Part shown: positions 1 to 13,914 of the stretch, piece after piece
Numbering within the stretch: position 1 is the stretch's first letter
Layout of the letters: every line of letters begins with the position of its first letter
Assembly: GCA_934630735.1 (NCBI GenBank)
Contig: CAKTWK010000044.1
Coordinates: 1 to 13,914 of the forward strand
DNA from: an uncultured Collinsella sp.
Lineage (GTDB): Bacteria; Actinomycetota; Coriobacteriia; Coriobacteriales; Coriobacteriaceae
Length of the DNA stretch: 13,914 nt
Direction of reading: 5' to 3'
The notes under the pieces: model-generated
What the model saw: the letters and a program-made list of their open reading frames with translations, nothing else
What the model was told of the DNA's origin: nothing
Database searches by the model: none
Program-made: the position numbers and the translations under genes

Positions 1-158
1 TCCAGATGATCAAGGGCAAGATCACGCCCGAGGAGCTGGACGATCTGGAGGATGTGGCCGCTTTGCAGGGCATTGCCCACGTCCCTGCCCGCGTCAAGTG
101 CGCCGAGCTCGCCTGGCGCACCCTCGACGGCATGCTCGAGAGGCAAGCTAACCAGTAG
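1..158 (+). CDS. sufU: SufU-type iron-sulfur cluster scaffold, C-terminal end (5' partial)
   Basis: Only the last 51 codons are present, read from position 3 to the TAG at 156-158; the start lies left of the window. SufU proteins of the SUF pathway accept sulfur from the cysteine desulfurase SufS and pass it on for iron-sulfur cluster assembly in the cytoplasm. The visible C-terminus carries the family pattern: an acidic helix (ITPEELDDLEDVAAL), then GIAHVPARVKCAELAWRTL. The Cys in RVKCAEL matches the third conserved metal-binding Cys of SufU/IscU proteins, and the preceding segment matches the 'G..P.R.KC..L.W..L' ending of Gram-positive SufU. A strong terminator follows 30 nt after the stop, so this is the last gene of its operon, presumably a suf operon lying to the left. 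Assignment as SufU rather than IscU is from the C-terminal pattern only. Confidence 0.85.
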   Translation, partial: QMIKGKITPEELDDLEDVAALQGIAHVPARVKCAELAWRTLDGMLERQANQ

Positions 159-188
159 CGGATGTCCCGAATCCAAGGATTTTGATTA

Positions 189-221
189 CCGAGCCGCCCG
201 ATACGGGCGGCTCGGCTTTTT
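189..221 (+). terminator. Rho-independent terminator after sufU
   Basis: Perfect 12-bp stem (189-200 with 204-215) rich in GC, three-base loop ATA, followed by CTTTTT. It sits 30 nt after the sufU stop and ends that operon. Confidence 0.9.
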
Positions 222-794
222 CATAGAGAGCGCACACGCAGCCCACGCGTCCGGCGCCCCGTCTGTCATTTATCGCACGGCCAACCGCGAACACGAGCGT
301 TTTCCACCGTACTAAAGCTTGTGACAAGACCACGGGCACGCCAGGCAATGTCCCAAGCCTCGTCTTACTGGGCTCCGGCTCGCCTCACGCCTGCCGCAGA
401 TGGGTCCCATAGGGTGCGGCGTGCATTTTTGCGAATATTCAGCACGCCAAGTCGTGTGTATACGCATTGGAAGCGTTAATCAACATCTCCAGTGGCCTTT
501 ATATTGCGTTTTAGAACAAGAATCGTGGTCTCAGGGGCGCAAACATGAGCTTCGGGAGCGCATCGGCAGGCATAAATAGCTTCAGAGCCCGTATGTTGCA
601 AAATTGCGGCGGTGCCGACAGTACCACGATGCAGAAAACTCCGCTTTTTGCACGGCGCAGACGGGGGTAGGTACGGGCAAAACCGAGCTAAGGCGTTATT
701 ATATGCATAACGGCGTCTGTTCTATGCAAATTAAGAAGTGTAGTTACCGTACCCGAGCTTTTAGAACAATAGCTGTGGCGTATGGGCGACCCCA
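222..794. other. Gene-poor intergenic stretch, no supported gene
   Basis: No reading frame here has a convincing start, codon bias or recognisable product. The segment from about 430 to 780 is richer in A and T than the rest of the window. Visible but unassigned structure: a weak nested hairpin (GCCGCA 393-398 with TGCGGC 415-420) followed by a short T-run at 426-430, and the 11-mer TTTTAGAACAA occurring twice in the same orientation (509-519 and 759-769). It may be decayed sequence between the sufU operon and the transposase-like gene. No known RNA family was recognised. Confidence 0.5.
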
Positions 795-813
795 GCCGCG
801 GTGCACCGGCGGC
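795..813. repeat. Imperfect palindrome at the 3' end of the transposase-like gene
   Basis: GCCGCGG and CCGGCGGC flank TGCA, forming a GC-rich hairpin with one bulged base that ends one base before the stop codon of the minus-strand transposase-like gene (stop complement at 815-817). No T-run follows on the minus strand, so it is not a classical terminator. RAYT-type proteins recognise REP-like hairpins, so it is a candidate site, but no second copy was seen in the window. Confidence 0.35.
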
Positions 814-814
814 C

Positions 815-1618
815 CTACACCACGTTTCCGCCAGTCCGCACCGCCGCTCGCGCACGGGCGCGCACAATACGAGAAACGGTACTTTTGCCAATCCCCGTAT
901 ACCGCTCAATCTGACGCACCGTAAAACCAGCATCGTGCAATCCAAGAATAACGACATTGCGTTGCGCCGACGGTGCGGCTTTAACCACGTGGAGCGGAAC
1001 CCCGAGCCCCTTCGCCAACTTTTCGGCAAAGGCGTGGCGTTCCCACTCCGTCTCTTTCATATCGCACAGCGCTGGCTCGCCGCTGTCGGGCGTCGAAAGC
1101 GAATAGGCAATAAAAGCCTTAGCAGAACCGAAAAGCTCAAGCACGCATGAAGGGTCGGAAAATCCCCTCGTCATATCATTGTCATAGGCCCGTAGATACT
1201 CGGCAAAGCTGCTCCACGGATAGCGCTCAATCAGAGCAATGCCCGCCTCCTGCGGATTGGCATGTACGGAGCGAATAGCCTCCATCACCTGCCAGTCGGT
1301 ATCGAGCGAGCGACGCTCAAAACGCTCACGAAACAGGCAGCCCGTGCGCCCGGTACGTTTATTGAACCGACGGACATACGTCAGCAGCAACCGCTGCATG
1401 ACTGCGCTCATTTCGTCCTCATAATCCAAAAGCGCCAGATCCACGTGGTCGTCCATAAGGCACCACGCCACGATTGTCACCCCCGCCTCCCGGCAGCAGT
1501 CGCGCATCAGCTCCAGAAACTCCCAGCGGTCGTCATCGGTCTCAAAGATCAGTTGCTTGCCTGTACCGCGGGCACAGACATGGTAAAAGCCGGTGACCGT
1601 TCTCCAAACGCGCTGCAT
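815..1618 (-). CDS. Y1/RAYT-type (IS200-like) transposase-like protein with C-terminal HTH, probably catalytically inactive
   Basis: 267 residues. Family members are HUH tyrosine enzymes that nick single-stranded DNA at REP or IS200/IS605 hairpins. The fold is recognisable: YHVCARG near residue 12, the block WCLMDDHVD at 52-60, the F-R-E-R-F region near 96-100, and the HANPQEAG...YPWSSF block at 119-138. A C-terminal helix-turn-helix (about 221-256, VRQIERYTGIGKSTVSRI) is added. Two key positions deviate: the HUH motif normally reads H-V-H but here is H58-V59-D60, and the Tyr four residues before the conserved NP is Ser117. The frame is otherwise intact, so this looks like a retained non-catalytic DNA-binding protein rather than random decay. 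The start at 1618 is chosen because GAGGGGAG lies 4 nt upstream; an in-frame ATG 32 codons earlier adds an unconserved tail. No mobile-element ends are visible. Confidence 0.75.
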   Translation of the reverse strand: MQRVWRTVTGFYHVCARGTGKQLIFETDDDRWEFLELMRDCCREAGVTIVAWCLMDDHVDLALLDYEDEMSAVMQRLLLTYVRRFNKRTGRTGCLFRERFERRSLDTDWQVMEAIRSVHANPQEAGIALIERYPWSSFAEYLRAYDNDMTRGFSDPSCVLELFGSAKAFIAYSLSTPDSGEPALCDMKETEWERHAFAEKLAKGLGVPLHVVKAAPSAQRNVVILGLHDAGFTVRQIERYTGIGKSTVSRIVRARARAAVRTGGNVV

Positions 1619-2010
1619 GACGCTCCCCTCGCCGGGATCTGCTTGCCATCCAATACAGCACGATTGAAGCGTGCCATCAAAACATTCACGCAAAACAACT
1701 GCGCCACACGACAAAAGGCAGTATCCAGGCGGCGAACGGCATCATAGCTACAGGTCAGACAACGCGACATAGTCAAAAGCTTGAACAGAACCGACCCCCT
1801 TCAGCGAACCGCACAGCCGCAAACAGCTTTGTTAAATCGCTTCAATTGAAAGTTCCGCGCTTCTCGCTACGAAAACTGGGCCGTTCGCCGAATATTCCGT
1901 GCATTTCGCGGTATTATAGGGGCTGCATGTCATGTCCCTTTCGAAGGGTCGCCCGGCAATCGCCAGCCACGACCCCCAGACGGGACGCCAACACGATAGA
2001 GAGGAGAGGC
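1619..2010 (+). promoter_or_regulatory. Intergenic region with probable promoter and leader of the iron-sulfur/GGGtGRT operon
   Basis: This 392-nt stretch separates the divergent transposase-like gene from the scaffold gene. A -10-like TATTAT at 1912-1917 precedes the operon by about 95 nt, but no good -35 stands at 16-18 nt. An alternative pair is TTGAAA at 1846-1851 with TACGAA at 1868-1873. The leader contains a small hairpin (CCCTT 1936-1940 with AAGGG 1944-1948). The ribosome binding site is GAGGAGAG just before the ATG at 2011. No gene is supported here. Confidence 0.35.
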
Positions 2011-2745
2011 ATGCAGTACTCACAGGAAGTGGAGAACATGTGCCCCGTTGCCAAGGGTGCATACCACGGCCCCGCACCCATCCCCGAGGAGGGCAAGTGG
2101 GTTCAGGCTAAGGAGATTTCCGACATCTCCGGTCTTACGCACGGTGTGGGTTGGTGCGCACCTCAGCAGGGCGCCTGCAAGCTCACGCTGAACGTCAAGG
2201 ACGGCATCATCGAGGAGGCCCTCGTTGAGACCATCGGCTGCTCGGGCATGACCCACTCTGCCGCCATGGCTTCCGAGATCCTTCCCGGTAAGACCATCCT
2301 CGAGGCCCTCAACACCGACCTCGTCTGCGACGCCATCAACGTTGCTATGCGCGAGATCTTCCTGCAGATCGTTTACGGCCGCAGCCAGACCGCGTTCTCC
2401 GAGGGCGGCCTGCCCGTGGGCGCCTCCCTCGACGACCTCGGCAAGGGCCTTCGCTCTCAGGTCGGCACCATGTTCGGCACCAAGGCCAAGGGCGCTCGTT
2501 ACCTCGAGCTCGCTCAGGGCTACGTCACCCGCATGGCTCTCAACGACAAGAACGAGATCATCGCGTTCGAGTTCCTGAACCTCGGTAAGTTCACCGACGC
2601 CGTCAAGGCCGGCAAGACCCCCGAGGAGGCCATCGCTGGCGCTATGGGCCACTATGGTCAGTGGGAGAACGCTGCCAAGTACATCGACCCGCGCACCGAC
2701 GAGGAGACTCACTCCGTCGCCAGCGTGTTCCCGGTTCACGAGTAG
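2011..2745 (+). CDS. NifU/IscU-like iron-sulfur cluster assembly scaffold protein
   Basis: 244 residues, cytoplasmic. The middle resembles NifU_N/IscU scaffolds, on which iron-sulfur clusters are built before transfer: GACKLTLNVKDGIIEEA (54-70) then ETIGCSGMTHSAAMAS (73-88), matching the IscU 'C..K.....DG.IE......GC..A.A.S' region. Cysteines are at 11, 49, 56, 77 and 106. C77 matches the second IscU ligand, and C49 or C56 the first. The usual Asp two residues after the first Cys is not evident, and the third ligand cannot be placed by eye. About 100 extra residues follow the scaffold-like part, making it longer than a standalone IscU or SufU (about 130-150). The start at 2011 has GAGGAGAG upstream; Met10 is an alternative. 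The next gene begins 18 nt after the stop, so the two are surely cotranscribed. Codon use is strongly biased, suggesting high expression. Its cluster type and targets are unknown. Confidence 0.8.
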   Translation: MQYSQEVENMCPVAKGAYHGPAPIPEEGKWVQAKEISDISGLTHGVGWCAPQQGACKLTLNVKDGIIEEALVETIGCSGMTHSAAMASEILPGKTILEALNTDLVCDAINVAMREIFLQIVYGRSQTAFSEGGLPVGASLDDLGKGLRSQVGTMFGTKAKGARYLELAQGYVTRMALNDKNEIIAFEFLNLGKFTDAVKAGKTPEEAIAGAMGHYGQWENAAKYIDPRTDEETHSVASVFPVHE

Positions 2746-2763
2746 AAAGGGAGGGAAATAACT

Positions 2764-3768
2764 ATGACTGTTACGTTCGAAGGTTACGAGCGCCGCGCTG
2801 ACAAGATCAACAAGTGCCTCGCCGACAACGGCATCGCCTCCCTCGAGGAAGCTCTGCAGATCTGCACCGACAAGGGCTTCAACCCGCGTGAGATCGTCAA
2901 CAACACCCAGTCCATCGCCTTCCAGAACGCCGAGTGGGCCTACACCCTCGGTTGCGCTCTCGCTGTCAAGCGTGGCGCCATGTCTGCTTCTGAGGCTGCT
3001 GCCATCATCGGCGAGGGCATCCAGGCCTTCACCGTTCCCGGCTCCGTCGCCGAGGACCGCAAGGTCGGTCTGGGCCACGGCAACCTGGGCGCTATGCTGC
3101 TCTCCGACGACACCGAGTGCTTCGCCTTCCTGGCCGGTCACGAGTCCTTCGCTGCCGCTGAGGGCGCTATCGGCCTGGCTCTGAACGCCAACAAGGCTCG
3201 TAAGAAGCCGCTGCGCGTTATCCTCAATGGTCTGGGCAAGGACGCCGCCCAGATCATCGCCCGCATCAACGGCTTCACCTATGTGCAGACCCAGTTCGAC
3301 TACTACACCGGCGAGCTGAAGATCGTCGAGACCATCCCCTACTCCGATGGTCCCCGCGCTGCCGTTAACTGCTACGGCTCCGACGACGTCCGCGAGGGCG
3401 TTGCCATCATGTGGCACGAGAACGTCGACATCTCGATCACCGGTAACTCCACCAACCCCACCCGCTTCCAGCACCCCGTCGCTGGCACCTACAAGAAGGA
3501 GCGCATCGAGGCTGGCAAGAAGTACTTCTCCGTCGCTTCTGGTGGCGGCACTGGCCGTACCCTGCACCCGGACAACATGGGCGCCGGCCCTGCCTCTTAC
3601 GGCATGACCGACACCATGGGCCGTATGCACTCCGACGCCCAGTTCGCCGGTTCTTCCTCCGTGCCTGCGCACGTCGACATGATGGGTCTCATCGGCATGG
3701 GCAACAACCCCATGGTCGGTGCTACCGTCGCCTGCGCTGTCGCCGTCGAGGAGGCCCTCAAGGCCTAA
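2764..3768 (+). CDS. GGGtGRT-family protein of unknown function
   Basis: 334 residues, no signal peptide or membrane segment. The family is named after the motif seen here at residues 260-266 (GGGTGRT), followed by the conserved stretch LHPDNMGAGPASYGMTDTMG and a His/Met-rich tail (H268, H289, H303). Other candidate metal or cluster ligands are C18, C34, C64, C119, C203, C324, H105, H126, H218 and H237. Length fits a complete family member. No biochemical function is known to me. It follows the iron-sulfur scaffold by 18 nt behind a strong site (AAAGGGAGGG at 2746-2755), shares its extreme codon bias and ends at a strong terminator, so the pair forms a closed two-gene operon. The context suggests a client, maturation partner or regulator of the scaffold; that is inference. 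Confidence 0.85.
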   Translation: MTVTFEGYERRADKINKCLADNGIASLEEALQICTDKGFNPREIVNNTQSIAFQNAEWAYTLGCALAVKRGAMSASEAAAIIGEGIQAFTVPGSVAEDRKVGLGHGNLGAMLLSDDTECFAFLAGHESFAAAEGAIGLALNANKARKKPLRVILNGLGKDAAQIIARINGFTYVQTQFDYYTGELKIVETIPYSDGPRAAVNCYGSDDVREGVAIMWHENVDISITGNSTNPTRFQHPVAGTYKKERIEAGKKYFSVASGGGTGRTLHPDNMGAGPASYGMTDTMGRMHSDAQFAGSSSVPAHVDMMGLIGMGNNPMVGATVACAVAVEEALKA

Positions 3769-3803
3769 TCGCGCCCGCGCGATGCTCATATAGTTGAGCT
3801 TTG

Positions 3804-3840
3804 GAGCCGCTATCCACCCGGGTAGCGGCTCTTTTTGTTT
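3804..3840 (+). terminator. Rho-independent terminator of the scaffold-GGGtGRT operon
   Basis: A 12-bp stem (GAGCCGCTATCC paired with GGGTAGCGGCTC, one G-U pair) with loop ACCC, ending at 3831 and followed by TTTTTGTTT. It lies 36 nt after the GGGtGRT stop codon. Confidence 0.92.
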
Positions 3841-4069
3841 GCGCAGCCCCCTGCCGCAAAGCAGTCTTTTTGGGACGGGGCTCTTTTGACTACTTTCCAC
3901 GTGGGCTATCCGATATATCAGTTACGCCGAGCTATGAGTCGAAACGAGGCGAAATGCCAGAGCACCCCTGACATCCACCTGCCATATTCGCCCTTTACCG
4001 AATTGCCGAGCCTTTGCAATGCCTTTACCGCTGTCCCATGCGACAATGCGCGAACGAGAAAGGAGTCCC

Positions 4070-5596
4070 ATGGAATCGACTGATGTACTGGTAATTGGAT
4101 CTGGCATTGCGGGCCTTTGCGCCGCCATCGAAGCGGCGCGCACGGGTGCAAGCGTCACTGTGGCAAGCGCCGGTAAAACTATGAGCGGATCGAGCTTTTT
4201 CCCGGGAACCTGGGGTCTCGGCCTTATTGGCCCCGTCGACGAAAACGACGAACAGGACCTCATCGACACCATCCAGACCGTCGGCGGCGGCGTTGCCGAC
4301 CCCGAGCTCGTCCAGACGTTTGTTCACGGTATTCCTAAGGCCATCCAATGGCTCGAGCAGGATCTGGGTGTTGAGCTCCAGCGTCCGCAAAGCGCCGAGA
4401 GCGCCCAGCAAAAGCAATTTATCCCCTGCTTTGACCATAAGACACGCAAATGGCGCGGCCTCACCCGCAAGCCCCTTGAGGACGCGTGTACGGCCCAGAT
4501 CGAGTCTCTCGGCATTCGCCTGCTCCCCCGCCACGAGCTTATCGATCTCGTTGAGAACACAAACGGAAAGATTACCGGCGCCGTGCTCTACAACCAAACA
4601 GACGAGCGCATTGTGACCTTTACAGCTAAAGCCACTATCATTGCTGCGGGCGGCACGGGCGGCCTATTCGAGCGCAGCCTCACTTCCGCCGACGTGCTCA
4701 GCTCATCACAGGCCATCGCGCTGGCGCACGGCGCGTCCCTTACTAATATAGAGTTCATGCAGATGATGCCCGGCTTCATCGAGCCCAAGCGAAACCTTGT
4801 CTTTAACGAGAAGACCTGGCGCTACGTACATGTAGACCAGCCGGTCGATATCGCCGACGACAAGCTGGGCGACCTGCTTGAGCAACGCTCCGGATATGGC
4901 CCCTTCACTTCGCGCCTGGCTTCCCGCGCCATCGATCTTACCATCGATCAAGCAGGCGCCGAAGGCCTGGCGCTCCACTACGACTTCCCCCGCAAGGACG
5001 TCCCTGAGTTTGTGCAGACCTTTGCCACCTGGCTACAAGATGAGCACGGCATCGCACCGACCGACGAGATGCGCGTGGCGATGTATGCCCACGCCGCCAA
5101 CGGCGGTATCAAAATCGACAAGACCGCGTACACGGGCGTTAAGGGCCTCTACGCCTGCGGCGAGGCTACAGGCGGCATGCATGGCGCCGACCGCATCGGC
5201 GGCTTGTCGAGTGCCAACGGCATCGTCTTCGGGCGCATCGCAGGCGCATCGGCAGCCCTTGCAGCGCGGAAAGAGCCTGAGGCAGCCCTGAAGGAGGATA
5301 TCGCCCTCCCACAGCACGGCATTGCTACAACAGATGCCGAACGCCTGACACGCAGCCTTAAGCACACGATGAGCACCTATTGCATGATCAACCGCACCGA
5401 GACGGGCCTATCCAAGGCACTACACGAGCTTGAGGGCTTGAAGACGGAAGCAACGACCTTGAACACACAGAAAGCTCAGGACAGCGAAATCGCAGCCCTC
5501 GCCCGCCTGCAATCGCAGATTCAGCTGGCAACGGAGATGGTCAAAGCCATGCGCAAGCGGACCGAAAGCCTAGGATCACACTATCGCGCAGACTAA
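4070..5596 (+). CDS. FAD-dependent oxidoreductase, L-aspartate oxidase/fumarate reductase flavoprotein family
   Basis: 508 residues, predicted cytoplasmic. An N-terminal Rossmann FAD site is clear (VLVIGSGIAGLCAAIEAARTG, residues 7-26), as are IIAAGGTGGLF (190-200) and the C-terminal flavin motif GVKGLYACGEATGGMHGADR...GLVFG-like (356-388). The end TESLGSHYRAD resembles the NadB/SdhA helical C-terminal domain. Substrate-pocket positions diverge: the family 'AQGG' is replaced near SSFFPGTWGLG (41-51), and 'FMQ.HPT' by FMQMMPG (229-235). H341 and R375 fall where substrate-binding His and Arg are expected. True L-aspartate oxidase is therefore not assured, and no nadA or nadC is nearby; an electron-bifurcating or fumarate-reducing role cannot be judged. 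The start at 4070 follows AAAGGAG with short spacing; the upstream in-frame ATG at 4019 adds an unconserved 17 residues. It is a single-gene unit. Confidence 0.8.
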   Translation: MESTDVLVIGSGIAGLCAAIEAARTGASVTVASAGKTMSGSSFFPGTWGLGLIGPVDENDEQDLIDTIQTVGGGVADPELVQTFVHGIPKAIQWLEQDLGVELQRPQSAESAQQKQFIPCFDHKTRKWRGLTRKPLEDACTAQIESLGIRLLPRHELIDLVENTNGKITGAVLYNQTDERIVTFTAKATIIAAGGTGGLFERSLTSADVLSSSQAIALAHGASLTNIEFMQMMPGFIEPKRNLVFNEKTWRYVHVDQPVDIADDKLGDLLEQRSGYGPFTSRLASRAIDLTIDQAGAEGLALHYDFPRKDVPEFVQTFATWLQDEHGIAPTDEMRVAMYAHAANGGIKIDKTAYTGVKGLYACGEATGGMHGADRIGGLSSANGIVFGRIAGASAALAARKEPEAALKEDIALPQHGIATTDAERLTRSLKHTMSTYCMINRTETGLSKALHELEGLKTEATTLNTQKAQDSEIAALARLQSQIQLATEMVKAMRKRTESLGSHYRAD

Positions 5597-5642
5597 ATCG
5601 ATTCTCGCTTTGAGTTTGATCACAACTTCTCAACATGCATCG

Positions 5643-5688
5643 AGCTCCGTAAGCATGATTCCCCTAAGGAGAACACGCTTACGGAGCT
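5643..5688 (+). terminator. Hairpin downstream of the FAD oxidoreductase gene, possible weak terminator
   Basis: Perfect 12-bp inverted repeat (AGCTCCGTAAGC 5643-5654 with GCTTACGGAGCT 5677-5688), loop 22 nt. It is followed only by TT and, after a gap, TGTTTT, so it is at best a weak terminator. The loop segment GATTCCC (5657-5663) can instead pair with GGGAATC (5708-5714), giving a mutually exclusive fold. It lies 46 nt after the oxidoreductase stop. Confidence 0.55.
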
Positions 5689-5770
5689 TTAGCCGTGTTT
5701 TCCCTAAGGGAATCACAGCGCAGATTTCTCAGCTCCGAGCCCTTTCGGGTTCGACACCATGTGAGGTCAA

Positions 5771-5802
5771 CAAAAAAGCGACCAGCCGAAGCCAGTCGCT
5801 TT
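5771..5802 (-). terminator. Second minus-strand UUCG-loop terminator
   Basis: Read on the minus strand: AAAGCGACTGGC, loop TTCG, GCTGGTCGCTTT, then TTT. The two imperfect positions are G-U pairs only when read on the minus strand, which fixes the orientation. It lies beyond the main tRNA terminator and now follows only a tRNA fragment, so it would be a backup. Confidence 0.8.
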
Positions 5803-5811
5803 AACATGCTT

Positions 5812-5831
5812 TGGTGGGCCGTCAGGGGGTC
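5812..5831 (-). pseudogene. 20-nt remnant of tRNA-Lys 3' end
   Basis: Identical to the last 20 nt of the two intact tRNA-Lys genes downstream in the window, including the encoded CCA (complement TGG at 5812-5814), the acceptor strand and part of the T-arm. Homology stops abruptly at 5831/5832, where the sequence turns into GC-rich hairpins. Either a truncated third tRNA-Lys copy or a leftover integration-type site. Confidence 0.75.
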
Positions 5832-5946
5832 AGCCTGCTGCGCAGGCGGCCGCTGCGGCGCTTCGCGCCTTGCGCGCTGCGCTGGCAAATGCTTACGCAT
5901 TTCCTCAGCTCCGCGCCCCGACGGGTTCGACCCCATGCGACGTTAA

Positions 5947-5979
5947 TAAAAAAGACGGCCAACCGAAGTTGACCGTCTT
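5947..5979 (-). terminator. Rho-independent terminator of the tRNA-His/Lys/Lys operon
   Basis: On the minus strand: AAGACGGTCAAC, loop TTCG, GTTGGCCGTCTT, then TTTTATT. Twelve base pairs including one G-U pair that exists only in the minus-strand RNA. It begins about 10 nt after the CCA of the last tRNA-Lys. Confidence 0.92.
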
Positions 5980-5988
5980 AACATGCTT

Positions 5989-6064
5989 TGGTGGGCCGTC
6001 AGGGGGTCGAACCCTGGACCTTGGGATTAAGAGTCCCCTGCTCTACCAACTGAGCTAACGACCC
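5989..6064 (-). tRNA. tRNA-Lys (CTT), distal copy
   Basis: 76 nt with encoded CCA. The acceptor stem GGGTCGT pairs with ACGGCCC (one G-U), discriminator A. The D-arm contains AGCTCAGTTGGTAGAGC, the anticodon loop reads CTCTTAA (anticodon CTT, reading AAG), and the T-loop is GTTCGAC. It is the last gene of the three-tRNA operon and identical to the copy at 6108-6183. Confidence 0.96.
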
Positions 6065-6068
6065 AAAG

Positions 6069-6094
6069 CTAAAGTCCGTTGTGGCGGACTTTAG
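6069..6094 (-). other. Perfect hairpin between the two tRNA-Lys genes
   Basis: Ten-bp perfect stem (CTAAAGTCCG 6069-6078 with CGGACTTTAG 6085-6094), 6-nt loop. On the minus strand it follows the first tRNA-Lys and precedes the second, without a T-run. It may be a processing signal or a partial attenuator that lowers expression of the distal copy. Confidence 0.6.
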
Positions 6095-6107
6095 AGGAGA
6101 TATCGTG

Positions 6108-6183
6108 TGGTGGGCCGTCAGGGGGTCGAACCCTGGACCTTGGGATTAAGAGTCCCCTGCTCTACCAACTGAGCTAACGACCC
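6108..6183 (-). tRNA. tRNA-Lys (CTT), proximal copy
   Basis: 76 nt, identical to the copy at 5989-6064, with anticodon CTT in loop CTCTTAA and encoded CCA (complement at 6108-6110). It is separated from tRNA-His by 22 nt and belongs to the same minus-strand transcript. Confidence 0.96.
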
Positions 6184-6205
6184 GATATCAACACGAAGCA
6201 AGAAC

Positions 6206-6283
6206 TGGGGTGGGTAAAGGGACTCGAACCCTCGACCTACGGGACCACAACCCGTCGCTCTAGCCAACTGAGCTACACCCACC
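6206..6283 (-). tRNA. tRNA-His (GTG)
   Basis: 78 nt. The anticodon loop TTGTGGT gives anticodon GTG. The extra 5' G (G-1, complement of c6283) opposite discriminator C73 is the identity mark of tRNA-His and is encoded in the DNA. The acceptor stem GTGGGTG pairs with 3' TACCCAC (one G-U), and CCA is encoded (complement at 6206-6208). First gene of the tRNA operon. Confidence 0.96.
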
Positions 6284-6309
6284 GTGTCCTGTGCGCTTCG
6301 CGCTCGACT

Positions 6310-6338
6310 ATTATTGCAAGGAACGCCACGCGATGCAA
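6310..6338 (-). promoter_or_regulatory. Promoter of the tRNA-His/Lys/Lys operon
   Basis: On the minus strand, TTGCAT (complement of 6333-6338), 17-nt spacer, AATAAT (complement of 6310-6315). The expected start is about 20 nt before tRNA-His. The segment just upstream (about 6343-6365) is AT-rich and contains the inverted repeat TTTTCAA/TTGAAAA (6346-6352, 6358-6364), suitable for an UP element, as is usual for stable-RNA promoters. Confidence 0.7.
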
Positions 6339-6369
6339 GCCCCAATTTTCAAGAATTTTGAAAAGAGTT

Positions 6370-6440
6370 TTTCGAGCGCGTTTCGAGCAATTCCCACCGG
6401 TTTCATAGGAGTAAACTTGCCCCACTGCAAATGCTCGAAA
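6370..6440 (+). promoter_or_regulatory. Repeated TTTCGAGC sites before the aminotransferase gene
   Basis: TTTCGAGC occurs at 6370-6377 and 6381-6388, one helical turn (11 bp) apart, and inverted (GCTCGAAA) at 6433-6440, where it abuts the AAAGGA ribosome binding site. The spacing suggests an operator, but no regulator is known and the -35/-10 of the aminotransferase gene is not clear. Confidence 0.35.
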
Positions 6441-6448
6441 GGACAAGC

Positions 6449-7630
6449 ATGAAAGAACTCTCCAATCGCACGGCAACGTTTACCGATTCGGTCATCCGCC
6501 GCATGACGCGCATCTCCAACAAGTACGGTGCCGTCAACCTCTCGCAGGGCTTCCCCGACTTCGATCCTCCGGCGCAGCTGCTCGAGAGCCTCAGCGCCAT
6601 CGCGACCGACCCCAAGCCGCTCTATCACCAGTACTCCATCACTTGGGGCTCCCAGGCCATGCGTGAGGCGCTCGCGGCCAAGCAGGAGCACTTTATGGGT
6701 ATGCCGATCAACCCCAACGAGAACATCGTAGTCACATGCGGCTCCACCGAGGCCATGATGGCCGCCATGATGACGGTTACGAACCCCGGAGATAAGGTCG
6801 TCATCTTCTCGCCGTTCTACGAGAACTACGGTGCCGACACGATTCTCTCGGGCGCTGAGCCCATCTATGTGCCGCTCAACCCGCCCATGTTCGACTTCGA
6901 TCGCGAGGTCCTCGAGGCGGCCTTCCGCGACAACGATCCCAAGGCCATCGTCCTGTGCAACCCGTCCAACCCCTGCGGCAAGGTCTTTACGCGCGAGGAG
7001 CTCACCTTTATCGCCGACCTCTGCAAAAAGTACGACGCCTACTGCATCACCGACGAGGTCTACGAGCACATCGTCTATTCGCCCCACGAGCATGTCTATA
7101 TGGCCACGCTGCCCGGCATGTTCGAGCGCACCATCAGCTGCAGCTCACTGTCCAAGACCTACTCCATCACCGGTTGGCGCCTGGGCTACACCATCGCTCC
7201 GGCCGAGATTACCGAGCGCATCAAAAAGGTCCACGACTTTCTCACGGTGGGCGCCGCCGCTCCCCTGCAGGAGGCCGTCGTCACCGCCCTCAATTTCGAC
7301 GACAGCTATTACCAGGAGGTCCTCGACCTCTACACCGCCAAGCGCGACCTGTTCTGCCAGGGGCTCGACAGCATCGGCCTCACGCACAACGTGCCGCAGG
7401 GCGCCTACTACGTAATGATGGACATCTCGGAGTTTGGCTATGACAGCGACCTCGAATTCTGCGAGGATCTCGCGTCTAAGGTGGGCGTGGGCGCCGTGCC
7501 CGGCTCAAGCTTCTTCCGCGAGCCTGTCAACCATCTGGTCCGTTTCCACTTTGCCAAGCGAGACGAAACGCTCAACGCAGCACTCGAGAACCTCAAGTCC
7601 CTGCGAGGTAAAATCAAGCCGCGCGGGTAG
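6449..7630 (+). CDS. Class I/II PLP-dependent aminotransferase
   Basis: 393 residues, cytoplasmic, fold-type I. Substrate-binding and PLP motifs are in the expected order: LSQGFPDFDPP (31-41), YSITWG (62-67), CGSTEAMMAAMM (97-108), NPSNPCGKV (171-179, with N174), TDEVYE (201-206, with D202 and Y205), and SSLSKTYSITGWRLGY (232-247), where K236 forms the Schiff base with PLP. The C-terminal VRFHFA carries the carboxylate-binding Arg. The sequence style matches the kynurenine/methionine/aspartate aminotransferase-like subgroup, but the amino donor cannot be fixed from sequence. The start at 6449 follows AAAGGAC; an in-frame ATG at 6431 is possible but overlaps the repeated TTTCGAGC element. It is a single-gene unit ended by a terminator, with the tRNA operon divergent upstream. 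Confidence 0.88.
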   Translation: MKELSNRTATFTDSVIRRMTRISNKYGAVNLSQGFPDFDPPAQLLESLSAIATDPKPLYHQYSITWGSQAMREALAAKQEHFMGMPINPNENIVVTCGSTEAMMAAMMTVTNPGDKVVIFSPFYENYGADTILSGAEPIYVPLNPPMFDFDREVLEAAFRDNDPKAIVLCNPSNPCGKVFTREELTFIADLCKKYDAYCITDEVYEHIVYSPHEHVYMATLPGMFERTISCSSLSKTYSITGWRLGYTIAPAEITERIKKVHDFLTVGAAAPLQEAVVTALNFDDSYYQEVLDLYTAKRDLFCQGLDSIGLTHNVPQGAYYVMMDISEFGYDSDLEFCEDLASKVGVGAVPGSSFFREPVNHLVRFHFAKRDETLNAALENLKSLRGKIKPRG

Positions 7631-7655
7631 AGACGGCCCAACAACTAAAAGCACC

Positions 7656-7698
7656 AAAGAAACCTCGCATCGTCCGTTGGGCTGCAAGGTTTCTTTTT
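7656..7698 (+). terminator. Rho-independent terminator of the aminotransferase gene
   Basis: AAAGAAACCT (7656-7665) pairs perfectly with AGGTTTCTTT (7687-7696), further T residues follow, and the loop is 21 nt. It lies 25 nt after the stop codon. Confidence 0.85.
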
Positions 7699-7732
7699 AT
7701 AGCGCTTTCTTAGTTTTTTAGGGCGCTATACT
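7698..7732 (+). promoter_or_regulatory. Promoter with overlapping inverted repeat upstream of the ROK kinase
   Basis: The inverted repeat TATAGCGC (7698-7705) and GCGCTATA (7723-7730), 17 nt apart, overlaps a -10-like TATACT (7727-7732). TTTCTT at 7706-7711 may serve as a weak -35 with 15-nt spacing. This geometry suits a repressor operator on the kinase promoter. The ribosome binding site GAGAGGGA lies 4 nt before the ATG at 7771. Confidence 0.45.
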
Positions 7733-7770
7733 TTAGAGGTGAAGTAACTCGCCCAATAGAGAGGGACGCT

Positions 7771-8664
7771 ATGGCAGAGCAGCAGCTTATCGGAGCGCTC
7801 GAGGCCGGCGGCACAAAGATGGCGTGCGCCACGGGCTATGCGGACGGCACGGTCCTGGAGCGCGAGCAGATTGCGACCACAACCCCGCAGGAGACCGTTG
7901 AGGCCGTCAACGCATGGTTTGCAGACAAAGGCATCGCCGCCCTGGGCATCGGAGCTTTTGGTCCCACCGCAGTCAACCCTGCCTCGCCACAGTATGGCAA
8001 GATTTTGGAGACGCCCAAGACCGCATGGCGCTACTTTGACCTGCTGGGCACCATCCAAAACGAGCTCAACGTCCCCTGCGGCTACGACACCGACGTCAAC
8101 GTCGCCTGCCTGGGCGAGGTCACCTTTGGCTGCGCACAAGGCCTTACCGACGTGGTGTACCTGACCATCGGCACCGGCGTGGGCGCCGGCGTGCTCTCGG
8201 GCGGTCAGCTCGTTCATGGCATGATGCACCCCGAGGCCGGTCACATCCTGGTCACACGCGACCCGCGTGACACCATCGGCGAGCACAGCGGCTGCCCCTT
8301 CCACGACAACTGCCTCGAGGGCCTCATCGCCGGCCCCGGAGTCAAAAAGCGCTGGAGCGGTAAGTCCGCCGGCGAGATGGCCGACGACCCGGAGGCCATG
8401 GACCTGCTCGCAGGCTATCTGGCGCAGGCGCTCATGACCTACACGCTGTGCTATGCCCCGCAGAAGATCATCATCGGCGGTGGCGTTGCCGATCACACCC
8501 CTATCGTGCCGCTCGCCCGCAAAAAGTGCGCCGAGATGCTCAACGGCTACATCGTCACGCCCGAGGTCAACGATATCGACACCTACATTGTCAACAATAG
8601 TCTCGAGGGCAAGCAGGGCATCATGGGCTGCCTGGCCCTGGGTGCCGCCGCGCTTCAGCAGTAG
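7771..8664 (+). CDS. ROK-family sugar kinase, fructokinase-like
   Basis: 297 residues, cytoplasmic. It probably phosphorylates fructose (or mannose/glucosamine-type sugars) with ATP. The N-terminal phosphate-binding motif is ALEAGGTK (9-16), the catalytic Asp is in DTDVN (D108), and TIGTGVGAGVLSGGQLVHGMMHPEAGH (132-158) is the second ATP/sugar segment. The zinc site of this ROK subgroup is seen as H158, C175, H178 and C181 in CPFHDNCLEGL, a pattern typical of the Bacillus YdhR/GmuE fructokinases rather than of NagC-like repressors. No HTH domain is present, so it is a kinase and not a ROK regulator. It is a single-gene unit behind a promoter with an inverted repeat, and it converges on vanZ through a shared terminator. 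No sugar transporter is nearby to confirm the substrate. Confidence 0.87.
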   Translation: MAEQQLIGALEAGGTKMACATGYADGTVLEREQIATTTPQETVEAVNAWFADKGIAALGIGAFGPTAVNPASPQYGKILETPKTAWRYFDLLGTIQNELNVPCGYDTDVNVACLGEVTFGCAQGLTDVVYLTIGTGVGAGVLSGGQLVHGMMHPEAGHILVTRDPRDTIGEHSGCPFHDNCLEGLIAGPGVKKRWSGKSAGEMADDPEAMDLLAGYLAQALMTYTLCYAPQKIIIGGGVADHTPIVPLARKKCAEMLNGYIVTPEVNDIDTYIVNNSLEGKQGIMGCLALGAAALQQ

Positions 8665-8748
8665 GCGCGCCAAAAGGGCGCTGCAACTTGCAGCGATCCC
8701 ATCCTACGGGATAACGCCGTCACGCCCCGTATAAGCCCCCAAACAAAG

Positions 8749-8792
8749 AAAGGCCGCCTAGGACCAAGCAATGTGTCCTAGGCGGCCTTTTT
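8749..8792. terminator. Bidirectional terminator between the ROK kinase and vanZ genes
   Basis: A perfect 16-bp stem (8749-8764 with 8775-8790), 10-nt loop, with T-runs on both sides (TTTTT on the plus strand, TTTCTTTG on the minus strand). The last four vanZ codons plus its stop fall within the right arm, so the stem is both coding and terminating. Confidence 0.93.
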
Positions 8793-9227
8793 GGCACATA
8801 TGAGCGATCGTAGAAGATATCGAAGCACAACGCCCGTCATCGCCCCGCAGCAGTCGATCATCACGTCGGTGATCATACCGGCGCGACCGGGCACAAAGAG
8901 CTGAATCGTCTCGTCAATCGAGGGAATCAGCAGCAAGAACACCGCCGTGGGAAGCAGTACGTCAAAGGTGCGACGGCCATCGACATCGAAAGCGCGCGTC
9001 GCCAGAATGCCGAGCACCATGTACTCGGTAAAATGCGCGCACTTGCGAACGACGAAGTTGGTCACCCACTCATACGGAAGCCCCATGCCGTGCAGAAAGC
9101 CGCGAACGGCCTCCATAATCGACAGGCTCAATGAACCGGACCCCGTGCCGGGAACCATCGAATTGCCCCAGATGAGCAGCACCATCAGGCAGGTCGCGAC
9201 CGCCCATTTTCGATCGAGTTTAAGCAT
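8778..9227 (-). CDS. VanZ-family membrane protein
   Basis: 149 residues, about four membrane segments (roughly 9-25, 66-80, 89-106, 119-140). Family signatures are RKCAHFTEYMVLGIL (61-75) and SIDETIQLFVPGRAGMITDVMIDCCG (103-128), matching the VanZ 'K..H...Y..LG', 'DE..Q.F.PGR' and 'D...N/D..G' motifs. VanZ proteins are small membrane proteins; the founding member raises teicoplanin resistance, but most homologues have no known role and resistance should not be inferred here. The start at 9227 is chosen over a TTG/ATG frame extending to 9275, which would overlap the upstream gene; GGAGG lies about 12 nt upstream, and the gap to the preceding stop is only 7 nt, implying coupled translation with the two-TM protein gene. 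Confidence 0.85.
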   Translation of the reverse strand: MLKLDRKWAVATCLMVLLIWGNSMVPGTGSGSLSLSIMEAVRGFLHGMGLPYEWVTNFVVRKCAHFTEYMVLGILATRAFDVDGRRTFDVLLPTAVFLLLIPSIDETIQLFVPGRAGMITDVMIDCCGAMTGVVLRYLLRSLICAKKAA

Positions 9228-9234
9228 GCAGGAG

Positions 9235-10704
9235 TTATGCCTCCGCACAGAGCGGCTCAAAGCTGGCGGTACCACCCTCGATAACGCTCAGATAGGCACG
9301 GCCCGTGCGCCTCACCGCTGCAGACTGCAGGCGGTCGATCTCCTCCTCGAGAATCTGATTGACACGCTCGTGGCGGCGATTCTCCATAACGCCGACAGCG
9401 ATGGCCTCGGCGCGCTCGATACCTTCGCGCGAGATGCGGGCGGTATCCTCGGGGAACACGGCGCTGTGTCGACCAACGTACGCGGGGGCAGCGGGCTGAG
9501 GAGCAGGCGTAAACACCGGAGCGGCAACGGGAGCAGGCTCGACGACCTCGTCCAAAATTGCGGCAGCGGCTGCCCACATGCCCTCGTGCCCCGAATAATC
9601 GGCCATGGGGACGTCTTCTTCGGAAGTCGCATCGACAGGCTCGTCGACTGCGACGTACTGGGACGCAGAGGCCGGGACATCGACCGGGGCAGCGACCACA
9701 TACGGCATGTCGTTCGAGATGACCGGCTCGTCAAGGTCATCGAGATCGATAGCCGCAGCAGAGGCGTCGCTGATGATCGGCATGTTGGCAAGGTTCGCGT
9801 TGTACGGCACAGCCTCCGCCGCCTGCTGCTGTGCAGGAGCGCCCCACAGCGAGCTTTCGGCAGCACGACGGGCGGCAATAGCCTCCTCGTCGACGGCCAG
9901 CGGCTCGTCGGCGTAGGGGTCAACGGCGGTGGCGGCAGCCGGAGTCACGGGCGCGGCAGTGTCATACGTAACGGATTGAGCCGTGGCGGCGTTGTTGGCG
10001 GCATTGGCCACCAGCGCCACAAAGGCGGCCGTGCTGCCCGCAGGGGCGGCATGAGAGCCCGAGACGGCGCGCGCAGCGGCAGCGATGTCATCACGGTTAT
10101 AGGAGCCGGTCTTACCGCCGTAGGTGAGTTCGTCGATAGCGACCTGGTAGACGTCGCGTGAGCGCGTGGGATCACAGCTGACCGGCGAATCGTCGTCGAG
10201 CATGCTATCGATCATGGACCAAGCGTCGGCCTCGCTCATGGCGTCTGCGGCGCGGGCGATGGTGGGGACGCCATCGTCGGCACGGCGACGCTGGAAGGCA
10301 CCGGTCAGGCCGGAGAAAACCGAAGAGGGCTGCGCGGCGTTTGCCTGAACGGCAGGAGCCGCAGTAGCAACGCCCTGAGGGGCAGCCCACTGCTGTTGGG
10401 CGGGCATCGAGGCGGTCTGGAACTCATTTTGATGCTGGTTGACGTTCGCGGCGCCACCCATGGCGTCGGGCTGGAACAGGCGCTCGGCATGCTGCGCACG
10501 ATATTCAGAAATGCCGAGCGAGGCGGCATAGATACCCACGCCCGCCACCGCACCCACGGCAAAGGGAACAGCGCCCGCGACGACCGTCTCGTTCACCGAC
10601 GAAAACGGCAGCGTGGCAGCATACATCACCACGGGAGCGGCAAGGCCGATTCCGCAGGAAAGTCCAGCAAGGACTGCTCGTTGTGTTGCATCAGAAGAAG
10701 CCAT
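9235..10704 (-). CDS. Two-TM, Ala/Pro-rich protein of unknown function
   Basis: 489 residues; not recognised. Two hydrophobic segments near the N-terminus (about 11-34 and 41-64) are followed by a long polar stretch rich in Ala, Pro, Gln, Asp and Glu (about 80-410). A better-ordered C-terminal part then follows (410-475): GRHSAVFPEDTARISREGIERAEA and a charged helix ENRRHERVNQILEEEIDRLQ that could form a coiled coil. The segment from 170 to 215 (CDPTRSRDVYQVAIDELTYGGKTGSYNRDDIAAAARA) also looks folded. No signal-peptide cleavage site is evident, so it is probably anchored with the tail on the cytoplasmic side; the topology is uncertain. The start at 10704 has GGGGAGAG 3 nt upstream; a start at 10731 adds 9 residues without support. 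vanZ follows after 7 nt, so they share a transcript. Confidence 0.75.
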   Translation of the reverse strand: MASSDATQRAVLAGLSCGIGLAAPVVMYAATLPFSSVNETVVAGAVPFAVGAVAGVGIYAASLGISEYRAQHAERLFQPDAMGGAANVNQHQNEFQTASMPAQQQWAAPQGVATAAPAVQANAAQPSSVFSGLTGAFQRRRADDGVPTIARAADAMSEADAWSMIDSMLDDDSPVSCDPTRSRDVYQVAIDELTYGGKTGSYNRDDIAAAARAVSGSHAAPAGSTAAFVALVANAANNAATAQSVTYDTAAPVTPAAATAVDPYADEPLAVDEEAIAARRAAESSLWGAPAQQQAAEAVPYNANLANMPIISDASAAAIDLDDLDEPVISNDMPYVVAAPVDVPASASQYVAVDEPVDATSEEDVPMADYSGHEGMWAAAAAILDEVVEPAPVAAPVFTPAPQPAAPAYVGRHSAVFPEDTARISREGIERAEAIAVGVMENRRHERVNQILEEEIDRLQSAAVRRTGRAYLSVIEGGTASFEPLCAEA

Positions 10705-10770
10705 GAGCTCTCCCCATCTTCCAGCACCCAAATCGCATCATTCAGTTGGCTGCGCGAGAGAAGATGAAGC

Positions 10771-10783
10771 GGGGCTACGCCCC
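10771..10783. other. Small GC hairpin in the leader of the two-TM protein gene
   Basis: GGGGC-TAC-GCCCC, a 5-bp perfect stem within the roughly 130-nt leader between the proposed promoter and the ATG at 10704. No T-run follows; its role is unknown. Confidence 0.4.
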
Positions 10784-10840
10784 AAAGCAACGGTATAAGG
10801 TTCGTTTCATCTGCGTTTTCCGTCGCGAAGCTTAACAGCT

Positions 10841-10869
10841 ATTATGCGAAACCCCCTTGGGGAATGCAA
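10841..10869 (-). promoter_or_regulatory. Promoter of the two-TM protein/vanZ operon
   Basis: On the minus strand: TTGCAT (complement of 10864-10869), 17-nt spacer, CATAAT (complement of 10841-10846). Same -35 and spacing as the tRNA operon promoter. It implies a leader of about 130 nt. Confidence 0.65.
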
Positions 10870-10947
10870 GCGACGAAGCGGGATTGAAACGGGAAAATCG
10901 CTGCTTGCCGGTCGTGAGGTCAATAATCGTTGGCGAGCGGCTATACG

Positions 10948-10977
10948 AAAAGGGCCAGGATCTAAACCCCGGCCCTT
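10948..10977 (-). terminator. Rho-independent terminator of rho
   Basis: On the minus strand AAGGGCC, then G-U and two G-C pairs, loop GTTTAGAT, closing with GGCCCTT and TTTT. It lies 39 nt after the rho stop codon. Confidence 0.85.
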
Positions 10978-11016
10978 GTGGCATGTCTATGGTTGTTGTC
11001 GCGTGCGGCGGACGGC

Positions 11017-13629: not shown

Positions 13630-13773
13630 AGTGTTTGCTCAACTTTCTTTTCAAGCCCTGTGATCACATGCTCCCTGCATAAACCTTCAGGGCGGCTAAA
13701 CAGTCTAGCTCCGTCAAATACCGACGGACATCATTGATCTGTATCGAGATGATTGCGTCATATACGCAGGGTT

Positions 13774-13801
13774 AGTGTAACACAACCGCAACCACCTGCA
13801 A
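13774..13801 (-). promoter_or_regulatory. Probable promoter of rho
   Basis: On the minus strand: TTGCAG (complement of 13796-13801), 16-nt spacer, TACACT (complement of 13774-13779). This would start RNA near 13767, about 138 nt before the GTG. Confidence 0.5.
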
Positions 13802-13865
13802 CTTAGTCATTGGACGTTCTTATACAACTGGTCATAAGCCTTGATTGGCAACTTCATCCGAACAC

Positions 13866-13905
13866 TTCCCACATTCATCCGTACATGTACGGATGAATGT
13901 GGGAA
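13866..13905. repeat. Perfect 40-bp palindrome at the right edge
   Basis: The 20 bases from 13866 (TTCCCACATTCATCCGTACA) are followed at once by their exact reverse complement up to 13905, with no loop. The half-site TTCATCCG[A/T]AC also occurs once more upstream at about 13853-13863 as a direct copy. No T-run borders it, so it is not a standard terminator. It could be an operator, a REP-like element or a cruciform site; the neighbouring gene lies outside the window. Confidence 0.9.
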
Positions 13906-13914
13906 TCCGATACC

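Follow-up and report, generated by a model that had tools for sequence, protein, structure and literature searches.

What kind of system is formed by a divergent NifU/IscU-like gene and a GGGtGRT family gene that stand side by side in Collinsella? We addressed this question in a 13,914-nucleotide (nt) stretch of DNA from an uncultured Collinsella sp. (GCA_934630735.1, contig CAKTWK010000044.1, positions 1-13,914), hereafter the window. On its plus strand, an extended NifU/IscU-like scaffold-type protein of 244 amino acids (2011..2745) is encoded upstream of a 334-residue GGGtGRT family protein (PF14057; 2764..3768). Both genes are in the same frame, and 18 nt separate the scaffold stop from the GGGtGRT start. 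An earlier note on this DNA had described a closed two-gene operon here, and our coordinates, gene order, strand and spacer agree with it. We conclude that the pair is probably a dedicated iron-sulfur (Fe-S) protein unit. A more specific reading, to which we give slightly less than an even chance, is that the two proteins form a stoichiometric Fe-S complex in which the NifU-like protein is the holding subunit.

The linkage of the two genes is nearly invariant. In a scan of one genome per species across 84,980 species at least 588 relatives were found, and the best 80 of these (L007-L086; identity of at least 73% in the best segment) were kept. They span Coriobacteriia, Clostridia, Bacilli, Bacteroidales, Treponema and Succinivibrio. 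A scaffold gene lies upstream of GGGtGRT on the same strand in 78 of these 80 loci, and in the remaining two (L038 and L039) the contig starts 117 and 64 nt ahead of the matched gene. Because this set is biased to close relatives, genomes were sampled a second time by family profile, which identified GGGtGRT carriers in 6 of 149 genomes (the phylum of G001), 16 of 249, 3 of 247, 6 of 249 (over the cut-off) and 10 of 149. Each phylum sample includes its centre genome, four of which had been picked for carrying the pair, and the two samplings overlap (e.g., L074/L088, L058/L106, L028/L109, L021/L119 and L011/L003). The scaffold is directly upstream of 42 of 42 GGGtGRT genes in the second sampling, where one gene split across two contigs (L125 and L126) was counted once. 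Two C-terminal GGGtGRT fragments (L104 and L108) and a sub-cut-off match (L115), none of which adjoins a scaffold, were left out of this count. Each fragment shares its contig with an intact GGGtGRT gene, some 7 and 24 kb away (genomes G152 and G151, respectively).

A reverse search with the scaffold alignment (E ≤ 1e-10) matched exactly the same 16 of 249 Clostridium-phylum genomes, with 17 scaffolds against 17 full GGGtGRT genes. GGGtGRT homologues thus do not mostly lack the scaffold as a neighbour, and the two genes were never found apart in the samples taken, as expected from the proposal in the earlier note that the scaffold is dedicated to its partner. The spacing is 70 nt or less in 115 of the 120 pairs measured over both samples; the exceptions are L091 (97 nt), L050 (143 nt), L072 (248 nt), L026 (317 nt, with a broken frame) and L081 (1,398 nt). 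When neighbours were clustered with the pair region masked, no third gene family was present in more than 10 of the 80 loci. The commonest neighbour is an ATP-binding cassette (ABC) transporter ATPase-like family (10 loci), and the next family reaches 6.

At L081, three small frames lie between scaffold and GGGtGRT (4602-6001), and the scaffold continues from an upstream frame; by eye, one of the small frames has a GSRARGD motif of nucleotidyltransferase-like form. In Parabacteroides distasonis (L132), the annotation places a hypothetical gene for 63 amino acids (5791-5982) between the two genes of the pair. Two candidate natural fusions were set aside. P0050 (585 amino acids) joins both genes, and is most likely a gene-calling product because it takes a TAG stop for Gln and shows KGREIT, the same spacer sequence; similar doubt attaches to P0124, in which the scaffold runs into GGGtGRT on a contig of 1,133 bases.

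The first protein resembles IscU, NifU and SufU. NifU_N (PF01592) matches it at residues 55-102 with 21.3 bits, just below the curated cut-off of 22, and at E ≤ 1 matches all 32 homologues scanned (best 9.9e-6). Among the pair's scaffolds in 12 carrier genomes, eight match NifU_N at 21.4-24 bits, seven of them above the cut-off, and the other four have no match at E ≤ 0.001. NCBIfam gives weak NifU/IscU/SufU matches only. An hhalign comparison with six canonical IscU-type proteins returned E 4.4e-7 and 92.6% probability over 47 columns, sequence matches in the PDB are ISCU and NifU, and Foldseek with a model of the fused pair listed IscU 7c8m (E 0.022, prob 0.94, TMt 0.46), a possible sign of the IscU fold. 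The roughly 100 extra residues reported earlier are real, given the 128-157 amino acids of most IscU/NifU chains compared, and so are the five Cys at 11, 49, 56, 77 and 106.

The putative ligand set of this protein differs from that of IscU. In 118 scaffold sequences, the window included, C49, C77, C106, H44, Q53, D103 and D107 are invariant; position 56 is Cys in 111 and position 11 in 101. The position of Cys37 (E. coli numbering) corresponds to Gln53 in the alignment to human ISCU and is Gln in 118 of 118. The hhalign register, shifted by one, places it at position 52 (Gln52 in the window), where Cys occurs in none of the 118 (CAP[QKE]QG in all). C49 sits three to four residues ahead of this Cys37-equivalent position. 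The Cys63 position is kept as C77 (GC[ST]GM in 118 of 118), and the invariant C106, a candidate for the E. coli C106 position, lies beyond the region aligned to IscU. The absence of the IscU Asp was seen correctly from the window alone. The Asp39 position is Ala55 in the HMMER alignment (Ala in 102 sequences, Thr in 10, Gly in 3, Cys in 3), and Gly54, likewise not Asp, in the hhalign register. Neither CGD nor LPPxK, the motif of IscU as client of the ISC chaperone, occurs in any of the 118 sequences, all of which carry CAPxQG and NTDLVCDAIN.

According to a 2026 review, Asp39 is often the fourth cluster ligand and is needed for efficient cluster release, and replacing it by Ala makes the cluster more stable in B. 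subtilis SufU, in IscU of E. coli and in the protein of S. pombe (PMC13423590). Since the Asp39 equivalent is lost in every homologue, the sequences suggest that the protein holds a cluster rather than acting as a scaffold that releases one. A strong separate NifU_N match, representing canonical IscU or SufU, is present in 10 of the 12 carrier genomes; the NifU_N search gave no strong canonical match in the other two, Bacteroides fluxus and Segatella copri.

The second protein is a full-length GGGtGRT family member (628.9 bits against a cut-off of 27, with profile positions 1-327 of 327 covered) without a match in NCBIfam. A Pfam search of both proteins at E ≤ 1 returned only NifU_N in the scaffold and only GGGtGRT in its partner. 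The GGGTGRT motif is at residues 260-266, as annotated before, and was found in 121 of 122 sequences. In this alignment 131 positions are at least 99% identical, among them H105, H126, E127, K159, D160, H237, D270, D283 and H303. The earlier impression of conserved Cys and His holds for His, with H105, H126, H237 and H303 invariant alongside K159, D160, D270 and D283, and fails for Cys, none of which is invariant (C119 in 119, C34 in 117 and C203 in 115 sequences).

An AlphaFold2 model of GGGtGRT from 51 rows (mean predicted local distance difference test score, pLDDT, 82.1; predicted template modelling score, pTM, 0.82) predicts an N-terminal helical part followed by a Rossmann-like alpha/beta part at about 115-320; the VIA-align rows for this model cover 115-319. 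Segments 230-233, 262-275 and 295-302 have pLDDT below 50, and 81% of these 26 positions are invariant, compared with 36% elsewhere. Low pLDDT together with high invariance is the pattern expected of loops that become ordered around a cofactor or partner, and such loops may be present here. Sequence comparison with solved structures gave no clear match for GGGtGRT, nor did structure comparison of the model give a clear fold match. The GGGTG and GxGxNPxxG motifs of the protein resemble FtsZ loops. With hhalign, GGGtGRT 289-322 aligns to FtsZ 37-74 with a score of 22.0, at a probability of just 1.0-1.7%. Scores in 60 column shuffles were at most 19.5, but 20 control families reached up to 20.3, and the structural alignment of GGGtGRT has a different register from the hhalign FtsZ alignment.

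In line with the earlier note, the family is not known to have an assigned function: the accessible parts of the literature that names GGGtGRT give no tested one. It is listed among the software-predicted virulence factors of Clostridium innocuum with high scores, in the text available to us (PMC9942572), and is also named in PMC12101220 and PMC12014591. Nothing supporting a role in virulence was seen in the present analysis.

Both genes carry signs of high expression. Their effective numbers of codons (Nc; 29.9 for the scaffold and 28.3 for GGGtGRT) are the two lowest among the nine window genes scored, the rest having 34.1-50.7, and are close to those of suf genes in a Collinsella aerofaciens record (30.4-31.6). 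Ribosome-binding sites (AGGAGAGG and GGGAGGG) are visible for the pair. In the accessible parts of chicken caecum, rumen and colorectal studies, GGGtGRT and a NifU are among the expressed or changing proteins, although this NifU may not be the pair's. The extreme codon bias, strong ribosome-binding sites and abundant expression put forward earlier are in keeping with these data. Codon bias that is equally extreme in both genes would be easier to explain for two partners made in equal amounts than for a maturase that acts catalytically and is required only in small quantity.

Expression in iron-replete conditions is documented in two relatives only, in sources available in part. In Bacteroides thetaiotaomicron, the table rows for BT0173-74 (GGGtGRT and NifU) are 11 to 12.8-fold down in iron depletion (P printed as 0), alongside falls of 2.7-fold for ferritin and 2.5-3.6-fold for hydrogenase, Rnf and fumarate reductase genes (PMC10434189). 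In the available text, the authors mention only the NifU of the pair, under nitrogen regulation, and count nitrite reduction among the operons that fall most severely (PMC10434189). In Clostridium pasteurianum, GGGtGRT is up in iron excess, 7.1-fold early and 2.2-fold late, the former being the largest Fe+ value in the table, which is the one place where GGGtGRT appears in the accessible version of the paper (PMC5395762). Two spots of the NifU-related F502_05017 are likewise higher in iron excess (2.4- and 3.7-fold early, 1.6- and 2.9-fold late; PMC5395762), and the locus number of F502_05017 neighbours that of the GGGtGRT gene.

Further mentions of NifU are less direct. In B. thetaiotaomicron with phage, as far as the accessible text goes, the NifU homologue BT_RS00855 had the most significant change of all proteins whose RNA did not change significantly (PMC12118408); this gene falls within the BT0173-74 rows of the iron table. 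The NifU gene in a C. difficile iron study stands beside iscR and iscS2 and, from this position, is probably a housekeeping one. A text search of PMC12000045 and PMC10102347 found no mention of NifU.

The pair appears to be a transcription unit of its own. It is closed by an intrinsic terminator at 3803..3832 on the plus strand (a 13-pair stem with 8 GC and a loop of 4, then TTTTTG), the strong terminator noted earlier; a simple scan found 2 terminator-like sites in the stretch, against 1.8 expected by chance, but the stem of this one has 13 pairs. Upstream, a promoter-like TCGCGnTAnnAT element with an extended -10-like form lies at 1905..1919 (+), 92-106 nt ahead of the scaffold start. Its TCGCG, TA and AT columns are invariant in six Collinsella-group upstream regions, the window included. 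Directly downstream, at 1925..1932 (+), GCATGTCA is invariant in 8 of 8 columns across the same six regions, two of which are near-identical, and could be an operator or an initial transcribed sequence. The element at 1905..1919 is absent from the listing of a sigma-70 scan, and none was seen by eye in Olsenella or Thermophilibacter upstream regions; we infer a promoter at this site from the sequence pattern. The scaffold leaders of two Clostridium species (L046 and L047) contain a strong hairpin-like inverted repeat, which was not seen by eye in other groups.

In C. aerofaciens (L130) the order is an Rrf2 regulator, sufCBDSU, a transposase, the pair and a flavin adenine dinucleotide (FAD) protein, and the pair begins 1.9 kb downstream of sufU. 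The window matches this order from its IS200-like transposase-type gene (1020-1714, minus strand; Y1_Tnp 30.5 bits) onward. Genes for sufD, sufS and sufU are near the pair in just 3 of the 80 loci, all Collinsella, and two single sufC matches at other loci may be other ABC ATPases. The terminator, the conserved promoter-like element, the C. aerofaciens order with its intervening transposase and the rarity of suf neighbours all indicate that the pair is a unit separate from SUF, as had been supposed. Elsewhere in the window, three transfer RNA (tRNA) genes stand in a row on the minus strand (Rfam RF00005; 5992-6064, 6111-6183 and 6209-6282), and the Collinsella locus L007 likewise has three tRNA genes with the same strand and spacing.

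The pair is present in five bacterial phyla, with carriers in Coriobacteriia, Clostridia, Bacteroidota, Spirochaetes and Proteobacteria. Further records, from Vibrio and Persicobacter, are found in PLSDB, and given the life style of these genera the carriers extend beyond strict anaerobes. In a tree of 117 concatenated pairs, made by a quick method and weak at its deep forks, the 18 Coriobacteriia rows fall into a single group, as do the 24 Bacteroidota rows, and well-supported branches force three label changes for Proteobacteria and three for Spirochaetes. One assembly of Succinivibrio, which is a metagenome bin and may be mis-binned, clusters with Clostridia, mostly Oscillospiraceae (98% in the Shimodaira-Hasegawa-like approximate likelihood ratio test, SH-aLRT). 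The pair thus seems, from the tree, to have been transferred between phyla as a unit. Four Spirochaete GGGtGRT proteins (L121-L124) are 345-348 amino acids long, against 332-339 in most others, and share a long common branch. The mirror-tree correlation over the 117 pairs (r 0.80) is not corrected for the species tree, and we draw no conclusion on contact from it.

Replacement of ferritin by the pair was considered and is unsupported overall. A strong ferritin match was defined as E < 1e-20, a threshold chosen after viewing the first table and then kept for later samples. Such matches occur in 2 of 16 carriers and 84 of 233 non-carriers of the Clostridium phylum (Fisher p 0.061; 0.023 without the centre genome), a hint that was not repeated in Spirochaetes (7 of 10 carriers against 117 of 139 non-carriers, p 0.37). 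Since strong matches are found in these 7 of 10 Spirochaete carriers and, among other carriers, in 16 of 22, the pair is not a simple substitute for ferritin.

How might such a unit work? We propose that, when iron is plentiful, the cell would make an obligate Fe-S pair in roughly equal amounts. The NifU-like protein, an IscU core with an altered putative ligand set (C49, C77, C106, H44, D103 and D107), would most likely keep an Fe-S cluster firmly as a permanent subunit without releasing it to many clients, because its ligand set differs, Asp is missing at the Asp39 position and LPPxK is absent. It would work with GGGtGRT and its predicted Rossmann-like core, whose most invariant loops, rich in His, Asp, Lys and Gly and including GGGTGRT, are a likely cofactor, cluster or partner site. 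The resulting complex could serve as an abundant sink for Fe-S or as a redox unit, shut down under iron scarcity; a store or a sensor would be other possible roles. The earlier note instead saw GGGtGRT as a redox or metal enzyme and the NifU-like protein as a dedicated maturase that builds a cluster and passes it on, which we consider rather unlikely. The one-to-one linkage in the samples would suit this arrangement, the predicted Rossmann-like core with its invariant polar residues looks enzyme-like, and 10 of the 12 carriers have a canonical IscU or SufU, so that the housekeeping scaffold in these genomes is another protein than that of the pair; against this, codon bias as extreme in the scaffold as in its partner exceeds the apparent need for a catalytic maturase, the release-promoting Asp is absent and no recurrent neighbour in the 80 loci hints at a substrate. 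It is unlikely, in our estimate, that the pair is a store or buffer that works like IssA or ferritin while belonging to neither family, in which the NifU-like protein would build and hold iron-sulfide clusters and GGGtGRT would pack or release them under nucleotide or redox control, in anaerobes and facultative anaerobes and spread by gene transfer among gut bacteria.

Several points weigh against a cluster-holding complex. With Gln at the Cys37 position in all 118 sequences the normal three-Cys site may not form, and C49 or C56 would therefore need to stand in, and GGGtGRT brings no invariant Cys. Iron regulation is known from two relatives, both in other phyla, and in the accessible B. thetaiotaomicron data other iron-dependent operons drop strongly too, with some rows larger than those of BT0173-74 (PMC10434189), so the pair would shift in this direction under a general iron-sparing response as well. 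A model of the two proteins as a single chain (first row P0050; pLDDT 78.3, pTM 0.62) favours neither side on complex formation, and 46 of the 103 rows in its alignment have about 30 residues misplaced at the GGGtGRT N-terminus. In literature mostly without accessible text, no metal, cluster or interaction measurement was found for the pair. Another reading is an iron-free pair whose expression tracks iron indirectly (e.g., through growth or redox state), GGGtGRT being a nucleotide- or sugar-nucleotide-dependent enzyme and its partner a degenerate NifU-like protein; we regard this as improbable. Only slightly less improbable is a further general system that assembles or carries Fe-S clusters for many targets in abundant iron, with GGGtGRT supplying sulfur, electrons or energy. 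Fe-S assembly systems usually go up in iron shortage, and the 11-fold fall of the pair is in the opposite direction; furthermore, LPPxK is lacking throughout, and SufS and SufU, whose nearness in C. aerofaciens would together with the NifU-like subunit speak for such a system, are confined to three Collinsella loci among the 80.

If the pair is indeed a cluster-holding or cluster-storing complex, the iron economy of gut anaerobes would be read differently from metaproteomes, as its proteins are named among those that gut, rumen and caecal communities express, and their levels track the supply of iron in relatives from two phyla.

Compared with known systems, the pair combines familiar parts in a different form. 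Its scaffold shares with IscU, NifU and SufU (PF01592) the core over residues 55-102 and the Cys63 equivalent C77. It differs from them in its length of 230-244 amino acids with a C-terminal extension, in having Gln at the Cys37 position, in never having Asp in the place of Asp39, in lacking LPPxK, in the new invariant C49 and NTDLVCDAIN segment, and in being accompanied by GGGtGRT in every genome sampled for both. From the GGGtGRT family (PF14057) the window protein shows no difference. MIS and SMS, the minimal Fe-S biogenesis systems, likewise have few genes including a scaffold-type protein, whereas the pair has no desulfurase or SufB/C-type gene as a recurrent neighbour in the 80 loci. In IssA of Pyrococcus furiosus, the available text describes a protein of an anaerobe that is made in abundant iron and sulfide and is proposed to be an Fe-S store; unlike the pair, it is a single protein of the NifB/NifX family (IPR003731) with a cationic tail (PMC5524996), and Pfam at E ≤ 1 detects no NifB/NifX-like domain of this type in either protein of the pair.
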